Source of the DNA: Bacteroidales bacterium
GTDB taxonomy: Bacteria > Bacteroidota > Bacteroidia > Bacteroidales > Marinilabiliaceae
Direction of reading: 5' to 3'
Assembly: GCA_024401355.1 (NCBI GenBank)
Contig: JAKSLF010000002.1
Location: 62,001 to 126,000 of the forward strand
DNA length: 64,000 nucleotides
Shown: positions 17,034-62,394 of the stretch, one piece after another
How the letters are laid out: every line of letters begins with the position of its first letter
Numbering within the stretch: the stretch's first letter is position 1
Translations under genes and position numbers: made by a program
Notes under the pieces: generated by a model
Databases searched by the model: none
What the model was told of the DNA's origin: nothing
What the model saw: the letters and a program-made list of their open reading frames with translations, nothing else

Positions 17034-17175
17034 AATTTGCATTTTTACACCACCCCTCCGATTGATACTTTCAATCTGTAATTTTCACTTCTTACTACTT
17101 TCTACGGATGACTAAGCAATGCTTAACGGACTATTAAGACTCTTTCTAAACTGAGATTTCGTAAGCATATCCCGC

Positions 17176-25078: not shown

Positions 25079-25843
25079 CTAGATAAGTCCTCTCACCTTG
25101 AGCGCCTCGAGGTCCTCTGGAGTGTCTATCGACAAGCTTTCAAGCTCAGTCTCCATTACCGCAATGCTATAGCCATTCTCCAGCCATCGCAACTGCTCAA
25201 GACTCTCACACTTCTCCAATGTGCCACGCTCCAGTTTTGTAATCTCACGCAATATGTCTGCACGATAGCCATAAAGACCAATGTGATTATAATACTTGTG
25301 CTTCACATGCCACTCCTTCTCCTCTACACCACGCAAATACGGAATTGGCGATCTGCTGAAGTATAGTGCATTCCCCTGGACCGATACCACAACCTTTGGC
25401 TTGTTTGGATTGAACAGGTCCTGGCTGTTGTCAGCCACTTTTACCAAGGTCGCTATCTCCGTCTCTGCTTTCAGAAATGCTGATGCCAGCAACTCTATCT
25501 GCACCGGACTGATAAATGGCTCATCACCCTGTATGTTTATTACCGCATGATACTTCTTGCCACTGGCTGCCTCTACCTTTTCTATCGCTTCCTCACAACG
25601 GTCCGTACCACTCTGGTGCGTCGTCGCTGTCATCACTACTCTGCCGCCAAATGCCTTGACTGCGTTCTCTATGCGCTCATCGTCTGTTGCTACATAAACA
25701 TCTGGTAATACCTTCGACGCCTGCTCATATACACGCTGTATCATTGGCTTGCCACCTATGTCTGCCAATGGCTTGCCTGGGAATCTGCTCGACGCATAAC
25801 GGGCTGGTATGAGCCCAAGAATATTATTGAATTTCGTTTCCAT
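25079..25843 (-). CDS. kdsB: 3-deoxy-manno-octulosonate cytidylyltransferase
   Basis: A 254-residue protein. LIPARYASSRFPGKPLADIGGKPMI is the canonical KdsB N-terminal nucleotide-binding loop (written here split: LIPARYASSRFPGKP then LADIGGKPMI). NIQGDEPFI and the RSPIPYLR block are present. It activates Kdo as CMP-Kdo for lipopolysaccharide inner-core synthesis. It ends in TAG and is followed after 24 bp by the M16 peptidase. Confidence 0.95.
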   Translation of the reverse strand: METKFNNILGLIPARYASSRFPGKPLADIGGKPMIQRVYEQASKVLPDVYVATDDERIENAVKAFGGRVVMTATTHQSGTDRCEEAIEKVEAASGKKYHAVINIQGDEPFISPVQIELLASAFLKAETEIATLVKVADNSQDLFNPNKPKVVVSVQGNALYFSRSPIPYLRGVEEKEWHVKHKYYNHIGLYGYRADILREITKLERGTLEKCESLEQLRWLENGYSIAVMETELESLSIDTPEDLEALKVRGLI

Positions 25844-30716: not shown

Positions 30717-31601
30717 TTAGTATTCCCAAACGTCATGCTCTTTCAAGAAGATCACATTCTTGATTCGCTCTGCCTCAAGGTTTGTATCAACATTTCCAGA
30801 TGCCATTTCAAGAATGGTTCTGTTGTTATATACATTAGCCTCAGAATATACATAGCTACCGAAACGACGCTTAGCGAAGAGGTCATCAAATGAATCACGC
30901 TGTGCGTCATTCTTTGTGTTATATGCCTCCTGCTTCATCAAGAATGGACGAAGCTCTGGGAAGTATACCCAGAATGAAAGCACCTGGTCAATACGCTCAC
31001 CTGTCTCATCTGCCTTCTCAAGGATAGGGCAAATGGCAATGATGCGGACGTCCATACGGCTATACTTCTTGTCAAAGAACCATACCTCCTTTACGAGGAG
31101 CTTCTTTGCAAGTGTAGCATCCATCTCTGACTCTACAATCTGACGCTCGTACAAACCTGTTTCTGGGTTCTGAATTTCAACTGTATCTATACCTGCGCCG
31201 AACTTTGTCTTAATTGCTTCAAAGTCCATACGACGGTCAAATTCACGGCCAAATCCCAAACCAGAATCGTATGCAGTAAGTTCACCATGGCTTATGGCAT
31301 CAAGCATAATGCGCACAACTGACTTACGACCATCAATCGACCACTTCGTGGTTGGATAATAGAGTGGCAAATTCATTTTCTCACGCATATCAATAATGCG
31401 CCAAATAGTCTTCTGCCACATTACATCCGCCTCACGAACGTGTACATAAGGAATCGCCTTCTTATTTGCAATGTGCTCTTTCTTTGCAATGTTGTCAACA
31501 CCCTTGAATGGTGAGGCATCTGGAGCAGATTCATCTGTCTGGGCAAAACCCGACATAGAAACTGTCAGCATGAGAGCCATTATAGACAATAACCTTTTCA
31601 T
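30717..31601 (-). CDS. gldN: Type IX secretion/gliding protein GldN (PorN)
   Basis: A 294-residue periplasmic protein with signal peptide (KRLLSIMALMLTVSMSGFAQ). The conserved GldN blocks VMWQKTIWRIIDMREKMN, NLPLYYPT and VWFFDKKYSRMDVRIIAICP are present. With GldK it forms the outer-membrane-associated ring of the T9SS. It is the last gene of the locus, 19 bp after the gldM C-terminal segment. Confidence 0.95.
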   Translation of the reverse strand: MKRLLSIMALMLTVSMSGFAQTDESAPDASPFKGVDNIAKKEHIANKKAIPYVHVREADVMWQKTIWRIIDMREKMNLPLYYPTTKWSIDGRKSVVRIMLDAISHGELTAYDSGLGFGREFDRRMDFEAIKTKFGAGIDTVEIQNPETGLYERQIVESEMDATLAKKLLVKEVWFFDKKYSRMDVRIIAICPILEKADETGERIDQVLSFWVYFPELRPFLMKQEAYNTKNDAQRDSFDDLFAKRRFGSYVYSEANVYNNRTILEMASGNVDTNLEAERIKNVIFLKEHDVWEY

Positions 31602-31620: not shown

Positions 31621-31974
31621 TTAATCTACTGTAAATGACAGAGGGCTCAACTTTCTAACGCCACCAGGACCTGTTGCCTGAACGTCTTCTATATAGAACT
31701 TCTGTCCTTTCTGCAAACCGTTGATCAACGACTTCTGTGCTGGTGTGAATGAAGCACTTGTTGAACGTTCACTTGTCAAGAATCCAGCCTTTACTGTTGA
31801 TACAGTGAAAGCAGTAACCTTAAACTGTACATCCATCACGAAGTCCTTCATCTCAGCAAATACACCTGCCTGTGCCTTCAAGACTCGTGCCTTGATCTTA
31901 CCGCCTGACAAACCGCCGACTGTTGCCTCTGGATTTGGAACACGAAGCAAACGGAATTCCTTGCTACCAATTGA
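31621..31974 (-). pseudogene. GldM C-terminal domain, separated by an in-frame TAG
   Basis: 117 codons in the same frame as the upstream gldM segment, beginning SIGSKEFRLLRVPNPEATVGG and ending LSPLSFTVD. This is the conserved distal beta-domain of GldM/PorM that projects to the GldKN ring. It has no credible start of its own: TTG at 31950 is the first possible codon and lies inside conserved sequence. The sequence shows no further stop or frameshift and looks freshly intact. A single base change (AAG or CAG to TAG) would explain the split. Confidence 0.85.
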
Positions 31975-33180
31975 CTACACACCATCAGCTGTCTTTGCTG
32001 ATACGTTGATGCTTGCCTTTGCTGTATTGTTCGCTGGCTTAACAATCCATCCGCTACCAGAACGTGATATTGTTGCACCAGTTGCTGTTACATTCAAATC
32101 ACTTGTAGGTATACCTGCTGCAGATATATCTACTGGGTTGTCAAGACCAATGTAGAATGCATTCATCTTTGTAGGTGAAACTACTACTGAAGGCTCACCA
32201 ACCTCATACTCAGCATCTACATCGTATGACTTCAACTCACCTGTTACAGGATCAGGTATCTGAATTCTTGCTGAGAACTTCTTCTGACCTACTGAAGATG
32301 CAGGTACTTCATACTTACCCTGACCAGCCTCTACAGGAAGCTTCTCACCATTTACTGTAACAATAGGATCCATTGTCTCATCGTATGCAGCAAGCATGAT
32401 GTCTGCCTTATACTTCTGACCACGCAATACGTAGCTAGACTCTGGTATTACAAGAGGCTTAATTCCAGTAAACTTGAATGATGCCTCATCTACCTTTGCA
32501 TACAAATAATTAACAACGTCCGACTGTGAACTTCTAACGTCATTCTGAACCTTTGAAAGAATTGACATCGTAGCAGCCAATGGAAGGTGCTCTGTAATCT
32601 TGCCAATCCATGGCTCAGCAGGTTCTGTTGGATCTGACTGAACAGGATCAGTATTAAACTGCTCTCTGTAGGCTTCAGCCTTAGCTTCATCACCATCAAC
32701 TGTCTGAATGAGGAATTCACGATATTCATCAATCATTGTCTTAAGTGAATCGCCACGCGCACCTCCCTGCTCAACAATCATAAGCTGAGCAGCAATATCC
32801 TGGTTACTAACTGACAAGTAGTTGTCAGGTGTAAATGGACTCTCAGGTTCGCCTGGACCATCTGCTGTATATACCATCAAGCACTTATAGTACTGGATCT
32901 GCTTATACAAAGCATCAGCCTTTTCGCGAAGTTCAACAGCCTTCTGATACTTGTCGCCAGCCTTCTTTGGATTCTGCTCCTTGGCTGCCTCAAAATCAAA
33001 ATACTGCTTATTTATTTTCTGGTCTACGACCTTAGTCGAATTCTTGATACCATTATCCACAAGGATGAAGGCGTTCAAAAGGTCACCAGACACGTTCAAG
33101 GCAAGCATCGCTGTCAGCATGAGGTACATCATGCCGATCATTTTTTGCCTCGGGGTTTCGGGACAGTTACCACCACTCAT
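31975..33180 (-). CDS. gldM: Type IX secretion motor protein GldM (PorM), ending at a premature TAG
   Basis: 401 residues are translated from ATG 33180 to a TAG at 31975-31977. The N-terminus has the single membrane helix (MIGMMYLMLTAMLALNVS) that sits with GldL in the inner membrane to form the proton-driven motor; periplasmic domains follow. Joined to the 117 in-frame codons downstream the chain is about 519 residues, the usual GldM size. As annotated it lacks the C-terminal domain that contacts the GldK/GldN ring. Neighbouring gld genes are intact. Confidence 0.93.
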   Translation of the reverse strand: MSGGNCPETPRQKMIGMMYLMLTAMLALNVSGDLLNAFILVDNGIKNSTKVVDQKINKQYFDFEAAKEQNPKKAGDKYQKAVELREKADALYKQIQYYKCLMVYTADGPGEPESPFTPDNYLSVSNQDIAAQLMIVEQGGARGDSLKTMIDEYREFLIQTVDGDEAKAEAYREQFNTDPVQSDPTEPAEPWIGKITEHLPLAATMSILSKVQNDVRSSQSDVVNYLYAKVDEASFKFTGIKPLVIPESSYVLRGQKYKADIMLAAYDETMDPIVTVNGEKLPVEAGQGKYEVPASSVGQKKFSARIQIPDPVTGELKSYDVDAEYEVGEPSVVVSPTKMNAFYIGLDNPVDISAAGIPTSDLNVTATGATISRSGSGWIVKPANNTAKASINVSAKTADGV

Positions 33181-33225: not shown

Positions 33226-34050
33226 TTATCGGTTTGTAACAGCGCTGAGCATGTTGCCATAGATTGAGTTCAACTCACCTACTGTCTTGCTCAATGATGC
33301 TATCTGCTGACGATACTGCTTAACACCCTCTACTGATGCTGCAATCTCACTTGAGATTGATGCAAGACCACTTGCAAGAGCCTCTGTAGACTGTGCCTGA
33401 CCCTTCAAACCTGCCAACTGCTGTACGTATGCTGCATTTACTGCTGACATATTGCCCTTCAACTGCTCTGACAAGTCTGCCTGTGAAGCGATTGAATCAG
33501 CAAGCTTTGCACTTGATGCTGAGAACTTAGAGCCTACTTCTGCTACCTGGCTCTGTGCTGCAGCAAACTGGCTCAATGAGTCATTTGCAACCTTTACATT
33601 ATTAACGTATGCCTTTGTTGCTGATGTTGCATCAGTAAGGTCTGCCATCTGTGATGTTGTCGAAGCAAGCTTCTTTACACCCTCAGAAAGCTGGTTGATT
33701 GTTGTCTGGTCGATTGCACCAGCCGAAACCAAAGCTGAAAGTTCGCTTCCGCCACCATTGCCACCATTGCCATGTGACTTCTTTGAAGAGTTTACATCTG
33801 GCTCTTCGTCCAAGCCCAAAAGCTCTGGATAAACCAATGTCCAGTCTGGCATTGCATGAGGTGGCTCGAATGCTGACAAGAAGAAGATCAAGGCTTCTAC
33901 ACCAAGACCTGCTACAAGCATTACACCTGCTCCTGGGAAGTGCATGATCTTAAACAATGCACCAACGATTGCTACAGCTGCACCCCAGCCATACACATAG
34001 GCCATAATCTTCTTATAGCCCGGACTTTCAACTAATTCCTGTATACTCAT
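33226..34050 (-). CDS. gldL: Type IX secretion motor protein GldL (PorL)
   Basis: A 274-residue protein with two N-terminal membrane helices (YGWGAAVAIVGALFKIMHF; AGVMLVAGLGVEALIFFLS). The second contains the conserved Glu thought to carry the proton path. The cytoplasmic part is rich in Ala/Ser/Gln coiled coil. The FEPPHAMPDWTLVYPEL block is diagnostic. It forms the GldLM rotary motor. Confidence 0.95.
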   Translation of the reverse strand: MSIQELVESPGYKKIMAYVYGWGAAVAIVGALFKIMHFPGAGVMLVAGLGVEALIFFLSAFEPPHAMPDWTLVYPELLGLDEEPDVNSSKKSHGNGGNGGGSELSALVSAGAIDQTTINQLSEGVKKLASTTSQMADLTDATSATKAYVNNVKVANDSLSQFAAAQSQVAEVGSKFSASSAKLADSIASQADLSEQLKGNMSAVNAAYVQQLAGLKGQAQSTEALASGLASISSEIAASVEGVKQYRQQIASLSKTVGELNSIYGNMLSAVTNR

Positions 34051-34091: not shown

Positions 34092-35417
34092 TTATTCACC
34101 AATGTAATCACGTACGCAACGGAATCCTATATAAGATGTTGCCGAATCCTGATATTCATACGAACGTGTTCCACACTGCATGTAATATGCAATATCCTTC
34201 CAAGAACCACCACGTATTACCTTTCTCTTCATTACATGAGATTCATCCGGACGAGCATTATACTTATAGTCAGGGTTGAAGTCATGTGTATAGGCGTATG
34301 AAGATTCATCAAATGCACTTGATGTCCACTCGGCTACGTTACCAGCCATGTCATACAGACCGTAATCATTTGGAGCGTATGATGCTATTGTTGTTGTTGA
34401 CGCAGCGCCATCGTCAACATAACGTCCTCTCAAAGGCTTGAAGTTCGCTACGAAACATCCACGGTCATTACGTGTGTAGTAACCACCCCATGGATAGATA
34501 CCTGCCTTGATACCACCTCGTGCTGCATATTCCCACTCAGCCTCTGTTGGGAGACGATAGTCCATCGCAAATGGCTGACCCGACTGATGCAAGAAGTTGT
34601 TCAAGAGGTTGCTTCGCCAAATACAGAACGCTGTAGCCTGCTTCCAGCTCACACCAACTACTGGATACTCATCGAATCCTGGATGCCAGAAATACATCTG
34701 TGTCCAAGGCTCGTTAAACGAATATGTAAAGTCTGCAATCCAGCAGAGTGTATCAGGATATACCAATACGCGGTCCTTCATGATGAATGATGAACGGTCC
34801 ACTATGTCACCAAGTTCACCCTTCGCGTCATATACCTGACCCTCGTACTGCTTTGTCTCGAAGTTATAACGGTTCGAACGCTTTGCTGCCTGCTGAAGGT
34901 CTACCCACTCATACTCATACTCAAGCTTACGTGTATCAAGCTCCTTGCGACGGAAAAATCTCTCCTTCTCAGGATAATACATCTCCTCGAGTATTTCTGC
35001 ATATTCTGTGTTGTACCAGTCAAGCTCTTCGTCCCAATTCAAGAATGGTGGGTCAATCTCATTGCCCATGGCATCCTCTGAAATAAGGAACTCGTCAAAC
35101 TGGTCTCCCAACAACCTACGTGCAATCGAGTCTCTTACCCAATATACAAACTGACGATACTCAGAGTTTGTAATCTCTGTCTCATCAATCCAGAACGAAC
35201 GCACTGTAACTGTCTTTGTCTGGGCGTTTGAAGTGCTCGCTACATCCTGCTCGTTCTGACCCATGTTGAAACTGCCCTGTGCAATGAAGAGCATTCCATA
35301 AGGATTAGGTTCAAAGAAACTAGCATTTCGCGAAACGCCGACCAACTCGCCACTTCCCGTGCCTCCGCAGCTGCTTAATAATAGCAGCGATAGCGCAAAT
35401 ACAATTATATTCTTCAT
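34092..35417 (-). CDS. gldK: Type IX secretion lipoprotein GldK (PorK)
   Basis: A 441-residue lipoprotein (lipobox LLSSC) with a formylglycine-generating-enzyme-like fold: FWIDETEITNSEYRQFV, YRLPTEAEWEYAARGG, DMAGNVAEWTSS and YIGFRCVRD. It forms the outer-membrane ring with GldN. It lies 18 bp after the PorP/SprF gene and 41 bp before gldL. Confidence 0.95.
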   Translation of the reverse strand: MKNIIVFALSLLLLSSCGGTGSGELVGVSRNASFFEPNPYGMLFIAQGSFNMGQNEQDVASTSNAQTKTVTVRSFWIDETEITNSEYRQFVYWVRDSIARRLLGDQFDEFLISEDAMGNEIDPPFLNWDEELDWYNTEYAEILEEMYYPEKERFFRRKELDTRKLEYEYEWVDLQQAAKRSNRYNFETKQYEGQVYDAKGELGDIVDRSSFIMKDRVLVYPDTLCWIADFTYSFNEPWTQMYFWHPGFDEYPVVGVSWKQATAFCIWRSNLLNNFLHQSGQPFAMDYRLPTEAEWEYAARGGIKAGIYPWGGYYTRNDRGCFVANFKPLRGRYVDDGAASTTTIASYAPNDYGLYDMAGNVAEWTSSAFDESSYAYTHDFNPDYKYNARPDESHVMKRKVIRGGSWKDIAYYMQCGTRSYEYQDSATSYIGFRCVRDYIGE

Positions 35418-35435
35418 AATAGCCTATATATCTAC

Positions 35436-36473
35436 TTAAAGTATTCTTACACTTTTATATCTCTTTGTTCGCTTCTCTACGTCAATGTTAAACGTGTAGC
35501 TTACATTGACTTCGTGCGAACCACTGTTATACCTACGCAAACCGGATAGGCACAAGTCATATGTGTATCCTACGTAAAGACCGTTAGAAAGGTTTAGCCC
35601 AAACTCAAAAAAAATTGCATCTTGAAGTCTGTAACCCATTCCAACAGCAAATTTACTCTTCATATTCACAAGCGCTGACATCTCCAACTGACTTGAAGCA
35701 AAGTCCGATTTGAAGAATATCCTCGGCTCCAGATTCATCACACTCGAGCCTAACTTGCGACCGGCTCCAAAAGTAACCACCGGCCTGGATTTTATCTCCG
35801 CACCACCTTTCATCTCCACTGTCGGAGCATTTAGATGCAGAAGTGACAAACTGACATAACTGACTTCCGACTGATAGAATCCACCTAATCCTACATCAAA
35901 TGTCGTGCCACTATCGTCTCCGCCCTGCAAAGCTTCATCCGAAGACTGGTGATAATCATTCTCTCCACCGTCCACTGATGGCTTCAGGTCTGATGTCTTG
36001 AAAGCAACGTTTATCACACCTAGCCTTGCACCTAACCCTAGGTATCCTTTCCCTAGCTCCAAGTGATAACTGTAGTTGCCATTTATGTTCATCGTCGTCA
36101 ATGGTCCCACCTTGTCATGAAAGACACTCACGCCGACTCCATGAAAACTCTTCAAGAATTTCACCTCTCCGTCAATACCCAATATCGTCGTTTGAGGCGC
36201 TCCATCAAAGCCTACCCATTGCTTTCTGAACGATCCAACTGCATTCCACGACCCAGTTTTTCCCGCAGCTCCAGGGTTCACTACAATGCCTAAATTAGCG
36301 CACCCGCCAAACTGCATCTCGTTCTGTGCCGAGACTTGTTGAATATTCAGACTGCAAAATAAAATAAAAAAGAGCAATAATACACCTATATTTGCATAAA
36401 ACATTTGTAAAATTTTCACATTTCTGAGAATTTCACAAATCTGCATCGGATTTTTCTCCAATTTAACAGGCAT
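35436..36473 (-). CDS. PorP/SprF family type IX secretion membrane protein
   Basis: A 345-residue protein. After a hydrophobic export signal (VLLLFFILFCSLNIQQVSA) the mature chain starts NEMQFGG and contains WNAVGSFRKQWVGFDGAPQT, the PorP/SprF signature, followed by beta-barrel strands ending VNVSYTFNI. PorP family proteins are outer-membrane partners of the T9SS. The signal peptide begins well inside the ORF, so initiation at an internal ATG (for example 36401) is possible; the first ATG is given. Confidence 0.9.
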   Translation of the reverse strand: MPVKLEKNPMQICEILRNVKILQMFYANIGVLLLFFILFCSLNIQQVSAQNEMQFGGCANLGIVVNPGAAGKTGSWNAVGSFRKQWVGFDGAPQTTILGIDGEVKFLKSFHGVGVSVFHDKVGPLTTMNINGNYSYHLELGKGYLGLGARLGVINVAFKTSDLKPSVDGGENDYHQSSDEALQGGDDSGTTFDVGLGGFYQSEVSYVSLSLLHLNAPTVEMKGGAEIKSRPVVTFGAGRKLGSSVMNLEPRIFFKSDFASSQLEMSALVNMKSKFAVGMGYRLQDAIFFEFGLNLSNGLYVGYTYDLCLSGLRRYNSGSHEVNVSYTFNIDVEKRTKRYKSVRIL

Positions 36474-49634: not shown

Positions 49635-52600
49635 CTACTTTCCTTCTTTTATGTTCTTCTCCTGGTCTATCTCTTTCAATATCTTTATTACTATCGATTT
49701 GAATTTCTCACTCGATATTGGCTGCTTCACCATGACTGACGCTCCCGCTGACTCTATAGCTTCTACGTCTATATCCGGACCAGTGGCGTACAGTACTATC
49801 ACTTTATGCTCTGGACCATAACTCCTCAACGATGCTACCACCACCGATGTCGAGTCACCAAACAACTGCTGGTCCACTATCGTCAGCGACGGTTTCTTCT
49901 CCAGCCACAACGACATGAAGACATGCTCCTGATCCACTATCAAGTCTCGACCATCAAGTGCATACGAGACAAATTGTATCGTCTCGTTGTTGTTACACAG
50001 CAACATTATGTCTTTTCCACGAGCCGCCTTGTGCTTGTTCAAGTCCGACGGATCTATATATGGTAATATCAATTCAAATGTCGATCCTTCTCCCTCTGTC
50101 GATCTCACCTTCACTTTTCCACCCATCTCCTTCGCCAAACCTCGGCATATCGAAAGTCCCAATCCTGTTCCTACCGAGAATACGTCAAGCTTCACGTATG
50201 GGTCAAACACTCTGTCTATCTGCGAAGCGGCAATGCCACATCCTGTATCACTAACACTGAACACTACGTCATTGCCCACACGCTCAACTCCCATCTCCAC
50301 TTTTCCTGTGGCGGTAAACTTAAACGCATTGTTTACGAAATGTTCCAGTATCTTCGATATTCTCGCACCATCACAGCACATCCGCAATTCGCCTTCTACT
50401 TTTCGTGTTACGAAATCCACTTTCGGACGCTGTACATAGTTGCACTTTTTGTGCACTTCGTCTATCAGAGTGTTTACATCCGATACCGAATATTCCACCT
50501 CCAATGTTCCAGCCTCTATCTGCGACAGGTCCATTATCGATTCTATGATGTTCAGCAAAAGGTCGTTGTTAGCATGCACTATCTCCGAATATATCGTCGC
50601 CTCATTGCTCTCCACGCTGCTCGATATCAAGTCCGAGAATCCGACTATCGCATTCAGCGGCGTCCTTATCTCATGGCTCATATTCGCCAGGAACTGCGAC
50701 TTCAGCATGTCGGCTTTCTCTGCCTTATGACGTGCCTCTATCAGCATCTTCTCGTTCTCTTTCGTCTGCGTTATGTCTATCGAGATACCTGTTATCGCTT
50801 CCGACGACCTGACAAACTGTACCTTTATATAATGCATCATTCCATCTGAGTGATTTACTCTCAACTCATATTGGAACGACTCTATGTCTCCAACGAATAT
50901 TCGTCCCAGAAGCGATCCATACACTTCTAGGTCCTCGTCTACAACTCTGTCAAGCACGGTCAGACTTCTCACGTATGGCTGATCTGCCGATACACCAAGG
51001 TTTATGTTCCACTGCTCCGATACATAGCCGCTCTTCGTGTCCGAAAACCAGCACACACCAACTTTCGCAAATTTTCCGATCTCCAGGAAGTATCTCTGGA
51101 ATATGTCTATCTGCTTCGCCTGTCTTATCACGTTGCTGTTGTCAGTCACAACCACCATGTAGCCCGTCAGCTCACCTTTCGTATAGAGCTTCGACATCTT
51201 GTATATCAGCTCTATCATGCCACTCTTCGATGTGGCATAATGAACTATGCTCATGTTGTAGTTTATTGCATACGACACTTCGTCTTTCTCTCTTATCTCC
51301 TGCTTCTGCTCGTCTGTCAGATTCGGATTCTCATATATGTTGAGACCAAGAGCCGACTTGACACTCGACATTCCAAACAACTCTACCGCCGTATTATTTA
51401 TATAGGTAAGAACTCCTTCCGAATTGAAGAATTCTATCGCCGCCGGCATCTTGTTGTATATCGAGTTCTGCAACTCCGTCTCCTGCTTCTTCTTCTGGTT
51501 CTGTCTTATCTCCTCCTCTATGCTTCGCGACACACCTACTACCTGCACTGGCATTCCACCAACTCTGCGTCCTGCTGCTTTTCCCCTCACTTCGTTCCAT
51601 TCCATCTTGCCCGTCTCCAGACTCCTTATTCGCACCCTCATGTTCAATGTGTCCGTCTCTCCCAACGCTATCGACTCCAACGCTCTGTTGAATCTTACCA
51701 GATCACTCGAATGTATCTTTCGCGATACAGCCTTCTCGTTCGCACTCTTCATGCTCAGCATCTCGCGTCCCCTGTGCACATGGCTCACTCTCTCATCCGT
51801 CAAGCAGTCCCACGTCCATGTTGTCATGTTACCAGCATGGCAAGCCTCATTCGTCAGATATAGCTGATCATTCATCTTCTCCAGCAACGACAACCTGTTA
51901 AGACATATCGCTACCCATTTCGATATCATTATCAGCCACTGCTTGTCAAACGCACTCCACACATGACGCGTCGGACTCAACACGCCCAACACACCCCATA
52001 TCTTTCCGTCATCAGTCTTTATCGGAGATATTATTGCCGACACAACTCCATTCCTCACCAGAAACCTTCTCTCCAGTTCCCACTTGTCACCCAAGCCCGT
52101 ATTTCTGTCAAGCACTATCGTCTCGCCCGTCTCACACGATTTCCTTATCCATCGAGAATACAAAGGATATAACTTGCTGACCGCACTTCCATTCCTGTCT
52201 ATCAACGTTCCGCCCACATAGTCCAGTATCGACATCATGTCTCCACCATCCCATCTCAACATTCCAGCCCTTACGCCAACCATCTGCATCCTTATCGTCG
52301 ACAACAGCTGATGGACTCCCTCATAGAAGGTGCTCAAGTCCGACATCAGATTAAACGATTTCATCATCGGCTCCAACGTCTCAACTCCTATGTTAGCCAC
52401 AGCTCGCTCACCAACTTCCTCTTCCGTCATCTGACGCGCTGTACCCAAATAATGCATATAGCCGTCACCATCCCTATATTCCTGCAGCTTCTGCGCGCTG
52501 AGCCATACTATTCCTCCCACTGCCGATATCGGCAATGCACGCTCATTCACTTCATCCGGACGAAGCTTCATCATGTCCGCCCTGAAGTCCTCAGGCATCT

Positions 52601-52757
52601 TCAGCAACAGCTGCTGAACAGTCAGCTTCGTGTTCTCAAAACCCAACATGCCACACAGACCCTCACTCATCGTGAGAGTTTGCTCGTCAACGCAAAGGTC
52701 CCAAAAATAGACTCCTTTGCCCATCAACGTGTTTAATATCGTCTGTGTTGCATCCAT
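49635..52757 (-). CDS. Multi-PAS/GAF hybrid histidine kinase with degenerate receiver
   Basis: A 1040-residue protein without membrane helices. An N-terminal PAS-like region and a GAF-like segment (about 150-300) precede further PAS modules (about 310-665). HisKA has His at about 695 (ANMSHEIRTPLNAIVGF); HATPase follows with NNAFKF, SDTGCGIA and GTGLGLSICRGLA. The C-terminal receiver-like domain (about 915-1030) keeps the phospho-acceptor Asp (PSLTIVDQQ) and Lys (VMVKQP), but the usual N-terminal acidic pair is Asn-Asn (LLCNNNE). No DNA-binding output is present. Confidence 0.9.
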   Translation of the reverse strand: MDATQTILNTLMGKGVYFWDLCVDEQTLTMSEGLCGMLGFENTKLTVQQLLLKMPEDFRADMMKLRPDEVNERALPISAVGGIVWLSAQKLQEYRDGDGYMHYLGTARQMTEEEVGERAVANIGVETLEPMMKSFNLMSDLSTFYEGVHQLLSTIRMQMVGVRAGMLRWDGGDMMSILDYVGGTLIDRNGSAVSKLYPLYSRWIRKSCETGETIVLDRNTGLGDKWELERRFLVRNGVVSAIISPIKTDDGKIWGVLGVLSPTRHVWSAFDKQWLIMISKWVAICLNRLSLLEKMNDQLYLTNEACHAGNMTTWTWDCLTDERVSHVHRGREMLSMKSANEKAVSRKIHSSDLVRFNRALESIALGETDTLNMRVRIRSLETGKMEWNEVRGKAAGRRVGGMPVQVVGVSRSIEEEIRQNQKKKQETELQNSIYNKMPAAIEFFNSEGVLTYINNTAVELFGMSSVKSALGLNIYENPNLTDEQKQEIREKDEVSYAINYNMSIVHYATSKSGMIELIYKMSKLYTKGELTGYMVVVTDNSNVIRQAKQIDIFQRYFLEIGKFAKVGVCWFSDTKSGYVSEQWNINLGVSADQPYVRSLTVLDRVVDEDLEVYGSLLGRIFVGDIESFQYELRVNHSDGMMHYIKVQFVRSSEAITGISIDITQTKENEKMLIEARHKAEKADMLKSQFLANMSHEIRTPLNAIVGFSDLISSSVESNEATIYSEIVHANNDLLLNIIESIMDLSQIEAGTLEVEYSVSDVNTLIDEVHKKCNYVQRPKVDFVTRKVEGELRMCCDGARISKILEHFVNNAFKFTATGKVEMGVERVGNDVVFSVSDTGCGIAASQIDRVFDPYVKLDVFSVGTGLGLSICRGLAKEMGGKVKVRSTEGEGSTFELILPYIDPSDLNKHKAARGKDIMLLCNNNETIQFVSYALDGRDLIVDQEHVFMSLWLEKKPSLTIVDQQLFGDSTSVVVASLRSYGPEHKVIVLYATGPDIDVEAIESAGASVMVKQPISSEKFKSIVIKILKEIDQEKNIKEGK

Positions 52758-53080: not shown

Positions 53081-53112
53081 AAAAAATAGGGAGTCGTTTG
53101 CTCCCTATCTTG

Positions 53113-53183
53113 TTGCCCCGGAATGAATCGAACACTCGCCAAAAGAACCAGAATCTTCTGTACTACCATTATACTACAGGGCA
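53113..53183 (-). tRNA. tRNA-Gln (anticodon CTG)
   Basis: A 71-nt cloverleaf: acceptor TGCCCTG/CGGGGCA (one G-T pair), D-arm AGTATAATGGTAGTAC, anticodon loop TTCTGGT (anticodon CTG) and T-arm GAGTG-TTCGATT-CATTC. It reads CAG and is first in the tandem transcript. Confidence 0.92.
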
Positions 53184-61611: not shown

Positions 61612-62394
61612 ATGAAGAAATTTATACTCTCTTTGGCTGCCCTCGCATTCGCAGGCATTGCAGCAAACGCACAGGACGCAACAGATGAATATTTCGACAT
61701 CGCAAACAATCCACTTGACAATGTAACTAGTGAAAAGCCAGTAGAAAAAAACAGTGTAAAAAATTTCTATAAATCGACAGAAACATCATTGTCTTTTTCT
61801 ATGTATGCCCTTTACCAAAAAAGTGAGAAGAATGCAGATGTCGATGCAGAAGGACTTGGATGGATATCTTATGAAACAAAAGGAAGCAGTTCTGCTGTAA
61901 CATGGGAAGCTATTGATGATTTCGCTGGTTCAGAATATTATTTTGGAGAAAGTTCCTCAACTGTAGAACCTCGAGTTGCTACTTGTAAAGCATCAGGAGA
62001 CAACAAAGAATATACAATGCAAGTTACAGGTATTGCTAAAGTTGGTGCTCTTGTTAATTCAAAGTCAACAAGCATAACAATGTATTTGTCTGTATACGAA
62101 GGCAAAAAACTTGTAAAGACTGCTAGCTCTAATGCAAACAAGTTTGAAGCAATATATGTTGGAGGCCTTGACAAGAGCAAGGTATATACAATAAAATTAT
62201 ACAACGATGATTCTGCCAAGAGTGGTAATAGCCACATTGCTGAGGTTATTTTCTACAATGAAAACAATTCTACTCCAGTAGAAGACATCGAGGCTGAGAA
62301 TGCTTCTAAGGTGGTTAAGACTATCGAGAATGGCCAGATCATCATCATCAAGAATGGTGTTAAGTACAACGTACTTGGTCAGATTGTTAAGTAA
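61612..62394 (+). CDS. Secreted protein with T9SS-like C-terminal tail, unknown function
   Basis: A 260-residue protein. A signal peptide (KKFILSLAALAFAGIAANAQ) is followed by an unrecognised beta-rich body (Ser/Thr/Tyr-rich) and a C-terminal segment NASKVVKTIENGQIIIIKNG...YNVLGQIVK. That ending resembles the short type IX sorting tails of Prevotella-like species (from memory). Codons are more A/T-rich than the flanking mreD and mrdA. It has its own promoter and terminator and interrupts the usual mreD-mrdA junction. Confidence 0.75.
   Translation: MKKFILSLAALAFAGIAANAQDATDEYFDIANNPLDNVTSEKPVEKNSVKNFYKSTETSLSFSMYALYQKSEKNADVDAEGLGWISYETKGSSSAVTWEAIDDFAGSEYYFGESSSTVEPRVATCKASGDNKEYTMQVTGIAKVGALVNSKSTSITMYLSVYEGKKLVKTASSNANKFEAIYVGGLDKSKVYTIKLYNDDSAKSGNSHIAEVIFYNENNSTPVEDIEAENASKVVKTIENGQIIIIKNGVKYNVLGQIVK

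Follow-up and report, generated by a model that had tools for sequence, protein, structure and literature searches.

The window (the whole 64,000-nucleotide stretch of DNA analyzed) carries a cluster of type IX secretion system (T9SS) genes on its minus strand. Here gldM is placed between gldL and gldN, with the gldK-gldL-gldM-gldN order retained, and its reading frame is interrupted by a premature in-frame TAG that is present in the assembly. The features of the cluster are as follows:

30717..31601, minus strand: gldN (TIGR03523), over the curated cut-off, uninterrupted
31621..31974, minus strand: 3′ part of gldM, 117 open and conserved codons covering D4 and the preceding end of D3, followed by TAA (31621-31623)
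31975..31977, minus strand: premature TAG of gldM in the context GTG TAG TCA, inside D3; a sense residue in aligned relatives
31975..33180, minus strand: 5′ part of gldM, 401 codons with the membrane helix, D1, D2 and most of D3, terminated by the premature TAG
33226..34050, minus strand: gldL (TIGR03513), over the curated cut-off, uninterrupted
34092..35417, minus strand: gldK (TIGR03525), over the curated cut-off, uninterrupted
35436..36473, minus strand: PorP/SprF-family gene (TIGR03519), over the curated cut-off, uninterrupted

A sequence-only reading of this DNA had described gldM as cut by an in-frame TAG with 117 codons of recognizable GldM sequence behind it, and the other gld genes as intact. 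Both observations were borne out, the latter by the curated cut-offs listed above and the former by open reading frames, Pfam, TIGR03517 and codon usage. Pfam searches of the 5′ part of gldM returned GldM_1st, GldM_2nd and GldM_3rd, while the 3′ part gave GldM_4th with 76.8 bits, the whole match (residues 13-115 of the 3′ piece) lying downstream of the TAG. The two parts aligned to positions 6-391 and 398-514 of the 524 positions of TIGR03517, and with the stop read through the gene scored 331.6 bits against a cut-off of 180, spanning positions 6-514. The four GldM domains do not share one open frame, as D4 is found only beyond the TAG. Codon usage of the 117-codon extension is gene-like and these codons contain no further lesions.

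The same reading held that the stop removes exactly the C-terminal domain. D4 is indeed lost, but the TAG lies inside D3 and the end of that domain is lost as well. Ahead of the TAG, 68 of the 82 positions of the GldM_3rd profile are matched. Residue 395 of the gene product aligns with residue 388 of the GldM chain 6ys8 (513 residues), which places the TAG near 6ys8 residue 395; D3 of Flavobacterium johnsoniae GldM is described as residues 321-405 and D4 as 406-513 (PMC5790014). Since the stop falls inside D3, the end of D3 is removed along with D4. According to the same description, the D3 domains of GldM swap strand 7 (PMC5790014), and we infer that the lost piece includes this swapped strand.

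The source genome (G000) is a draft metagenome genome of 2,916,331 bases in 69 contigs, with a completeness of 85.13. It has a single GldM_4th match, the one in the interrupted gldM, and the assembled genome thus yielded no other complete gldM. Among the relatives compared, the interruption was found only in this genome. We searched 71 genomes of the family and obtained 67 near-full-length copies of gldM, of which only the source copy carries an internal stop; among the remaining genomes, two had contig-broken gldM fragments and two had no match. The lesion, predicted to be disabling, occurs in one of 67 copies and is absent from the relatives. An order-wide search of 218 genomes (200 with a match) gave the same picture, the stop occurring only in the source genome among the 150 matches listed. 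We also examined the column of the TAG in an alignment built from 110 loci, a set in which some genomes are doubled because the same genome is held in two collections. After removal of nine loci without a downstream match and of the source copy, the column contained varied sense residues in the 100 relatives, most commonly glutamine, arginine or lysine, with a gap in one.

To evaluate selection on the two parts of gldM, we compared the source copy with its nearest relative (L023). The dN/dS ratio was 0.079 downstream and 0.151 upstream of the TAG, rough values since dS exceeds 1, which also makes for a weak bound on age. Against relatives other than L023, conservation is lower in the downstream than in the upstream part, and the same is true of the gldM of L023 itself. 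Identity to L029 was 61.7% (source) and 60.0% (L023) in the downstream part, and 76.0% and 76.1%, respectively, in the upstream part; for L013 the downstream values were 41.2% and 42.1%. Relative to L029, then, D4 shows no faster change in the source gldM than in that of L023. Downstream identities to four more distant relatives were 36.0-39.5% for the source and 38.6-44.6% for L023, a comparison that we set aside because the aligned lengths differ (114 vs. 101-102). Relaxed selection downstream of the TAG was not detected, a result that a very recent lesion would give as well. With no clear sign of decay in the 3′ part, these comparisons suggest that the stop is very recent, is absent from living cells, or is read through.

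We then asked whether TAG acts as an ordinary stop in this genome. The release factor gene RF1 (prfA) is intact (452.2 bits, uninterrupted). In 262 source genes supported by a relative, the terminator is TAG in 62, TAA in 157 and TGA in 43; TAG terminators are commoner here than in G004, a genome of the same genus (36 of 238). A second in-frame stop within five codons follows 16 of the 62 TAG, 45 of the 157 TAA and 19 of the 43 TGA genes. Backup stops are thus no closer in the TAG genes than in the others, which gives no sign of an added safeguard. The 32 tRNAs listed were free of CTA and TTA anticodons; tRNAs for Ala, Lys, Tyr and Cys are likewise missing, so the set is incomplete. In-frame TAGs amounted to two per 93,567 aligned residues in a sampled comparison with G004. 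These data do not support a general reassignment of TAG in the source genome. The sequence-only reading had also pointed, as a speculation, to a tRNA-Gln(CTG) as a possible reader of the TAG. This tRNA does lie in the window (53112-53183), where it adjoins a tRNA-Gln(TTG). Such tRNAs are the normal pair for CAG and CAA, and together with the intact RF1 and the frequent use of TAG as a terminator this speaks against amber read-through by tRNA-Gln(CTG).

Two further TAGs in the window, at 25079 and 49635, each with a long open frame behind it, were examined as candidate gene interruptions and rejected, each separating unrelated neighboring genes that happen to share a frame. At 25079 a kdsB-like gene is followed by an M16 peptidase gene, and at 49635 a histidine kinase gene by an S66 peptidase gene. 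The window also encodes a secreted-looking protein of 260 residues (61612-62394), which had been read as a T9SS-like cargo. By eye its C-terminus does resemble a short type IX sorting tail, but no match was obtained to Pfam, NCBIfam or the sorting-tail profile (TIGR04183, E ≤ 0.01).

A second T9SS gene of the source genome is interrupted in the same manner. porQ (L217; contig 3, 16363-17262, minus strand) contains one in-frame TAG at 17050-17052, and its two pieces, of 101 and 236 residues, align to positions 4-93 and 97-335 of the 335 positions of T9SS_PorQ (NF033711). No solved structure related to the downstream piece was found at E ≤ 0.001. A published description has PorQ anchoring PorZ (PMC7463736). 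In turn, porV, located on contig 45 by a search for the PorV/PorQ family, is intact. TAG thus interrupts two of the seven type IX components examined (gldK, gldL, gldM, gldN, the PorP-family gene, porV and porQ). The genome contains 26 sorting-tail matches, 20 of them over the cut-off and none with a stop. A search with TIGR04189 returned nothing in the source genome and nothing in the controls either, and is hence uninformative. We did not find the translocon gene sprA (PF14349) in the source assembly, while it is present in 11 of 12 other genomes of the genus that were searched. In G004, sprA is adjacent to thiL and ruvA and follows them, and none of the three was found in the source assembly (the ruvA query matched 12 of 14 control genomes; the thiL query had no positive control). 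As all three genes are missing, an assembly gap is likelier than loss of sprA; the absence of sprA probably reflects such a gap, and we rejected it as proof of T9SS loss.

To find out how common interrupted genes are, we performed a homology scan of a 44% sample of the source genome against a sample of G004, which gave 260 gene pairs. Among 23 source rows flagged, three were kept. Twelve of the 20 dropped rows had several stops and were shadow reading frames, open over at least 0.95 of their length in another frame; three had stops upstream of the likely start (two of them judged by eye), and five fell under overlap or end rules. The three interrupted genes, out of about 248 pairs, are gldM (TAG), a lipoprotein-like gene (TAG) and a gene for a large protein (TAA). 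In the lipoprotein-like gene (L231:7347-8261; contig 3) the TAG is at 52612-52614, near the gene start; the gene shows 57% identity to a 305-residue protein of G004, and its downstream part has no family match. The large protein of about 1,600 residues (L206:11537-16540; contig 2) is split by a TAA at 73826-73828, while its counterpart in G004 is a single frame of 1,593 residues; neither half nor the counterpart matched Pfam. No frameshifts were flagged in this sample with a test that requires a further match at E ≤ 1e-15 in a different frame, a threshold that misses short remnants. porQ was inside the source sample but had no partner in that of G004. Scans made without reference proteins were insensitive, as porQ was missed although its stretch was covered, and a family search of the candidate pairs that they produced returned no halves of a shared family and missed the L206 pair, which is a real case.

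In G004, at most one of about 270 genes is interrupted (L260, by a TAA; 39% identity, with no better open frame), a case that is possibly genuine; three more single-stop rows of that genome were shadow frames. The difference between the two genomes (three of 260 vs. none of 276) was not significant (p 0.11), and an excess of interruptions in the source is therefore not firm. T9SS genes (two of seven) were enriched over other genes (two of 250) in a rough Fisher test (p 0.004), yet this enrichment is post hoc, since the analysis started from gldM, porQ was sought on purpose and the 2/250 is approximate. Of the four interruptions found, those in gldM, porQ and the lipoprotein-like gene are TAGs with a serine codon directly behind them; with only four cases, no weight can be given to such a pattern.

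Among the options that the sequence-only reading had left unranked, recent inactivation gains support from the similar lesion that this genome carries in porQ. From these sequence comparisons we favor, at a probability of roughly 0.55, the interpretation that the TAG of gldM represents a true nonsense allele of recent origin and that the gldM and porQ stops cripple the T9SS in the sampled population. This would mean that the cells carry the stops, have a truncated GldM without function and no longer secrete by the T9SS. Having retained its membrane helix together with D1 and D2, the truncated protein could remain a partner of the GldL motor, while it would be deprived of the end of D3 and of D4, the contact domain for the GldN/GldK ring. 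In two-hybrid assays PorM D4 alone was reported as sufficient for contact with PorN, whereas contact with PorK required D2-D4 (PMC5790014), and in the PorKN ring structure D4 is placed on PorN, to which it was cross-linked by a disulphide (PMC12421860). The motor would then no longer drive the outer-membrane ring, leaving little or no type IX secretion. With the second nonsense codon in porQ, the system would be disabled twice over, and this second hit is what speaks most for a real loss. Several observations count against a nonsense allele. It is seen in one draft genome. What weighs most is that the system otherwise shows no decay, with its 26 sorting tails free of stops and gldK, gldL, gldN and porV intact. 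Ordinary pseudogenes often carry frameshifts, and none were flagged in the sample.

The same observations are consistent with a base error in the draft, or with a rare allele of a strain mixture that entered the consensus, in which case the gldM of the population would be intact and the system working. We consider this the main rival, possible though less probable. The draft state of the genome (69 contigs, completeness 85.13) allows for it, and single stops with no frameshift flagged are the pattern that substitution errors would leave. The wholly conserved and open downstream part of gldM, the intact cargo tails and other T9SS components, and the uninterrupted frames of all 66 other near-full-length copies in the family also agree with a working system. 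Yet the contigs are long (the longest among those listed has 280,441 bases), which argues against very low coverage. Moreover, to produce the three nonsense codons among the 93,567 aligned residues, roughly two errors per 10,000 bases would be required, which is high for a short-read consensus; this is a soft estimate that assumes about one in 20 random substitutions to give a stop and counts three events including gldM. Finally, errors ought not to cluster in one system.

Partial read-through of the TAG, with full-length GldM made at a low or regulated level, we regard as unlikely. It would explain the purifying selection on the downstream frame and the use of the same codon, with a serine codon after it, in gldM, porQ and the lipoprotein-like gene, and a suppressor tRNA could be hidden among the several isotypes missing from the assembly. 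However, RF1 is intact, TAG ends 62 of the 262 genes, more than in G004, with a second stop no closer, the 32 listed tRNAs include no suppressor anticodon, very few in-frame TAGs occur and one of the interruptions is a TAA. It is more doubtful still that the three TAGs are tolerated because they are sometimes translated and that read-through switches on type IX secretion, with, for instance, a tRNA missing from the assembly or a TAG-recoding phage during infection as the source of the suppressor. A GldM made of two pieces, the second started inside the frame and joining the first, appears very improbable. The whole GldM_4th match does fall in the downstream piece, and a TTG at 31950 could serve as a start, but the piece has no ATG before codon 41 and, as judged by eye, lacks both a signal peptide and a membrane helix, which would leave it cytoplasmic although D4 must be periplasmic. 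Such an arrangement would also part the end of D3 from the rest of the domain, and in all 66 other near-full-length family genes GldM is one frame. The in-frame TAGs in the three genes could at first sight point to a genome-wide reassignment of TAG to an amino acid, which is the least credible explanation of all; we rejected it on the intact RF1, the frequency of TAG as a terminator and the rarity of in-frame TAG (two in the aligned residues).

The source gldM shares with GldM/PorM of known T9SS the domain order, the helix region and the gldK-gldL-gldM-gldN order. It differs from them by the single in-frame TAG in D3 and by a predicted product without the end of D3 and D4. Like ordinary nonsense pseudogenes or recent loss-of-function alleles, it has a single stop in an otherwise intact frame and is one of few genes so affected. 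Unlike ordinary pseudogenes it shows neither a frameshift nor relaxed selection downstream, so that it would be either very recent or no pseudogene. TAG-recoded crAss-like phages of Bacteroidales hosts read TAG as glutamine. Like them, the source has an in-frame TAG, and its genome belongs to the order of their hosts, but here the gene is a chromosomal gldM, RF1 is present, TAG is a common terminator and no suppressor tRNA was found. A text search for literature joining the type IX secretion system, GldM and nonsense mutation returned nothing.

If the stops were errors, this genome would be an example of a draft that fakes loss of secretion. Read-through, only if shown, would make the case matter much more. 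If, as we favor, the stops occur in the cells, the T9SS would at present be disappearing from a gut-type Bacteroidales lineage that keeps at least 20 recognizable type IX cargo tails, and this lineage would offer a natural test of T9SS dispensability.
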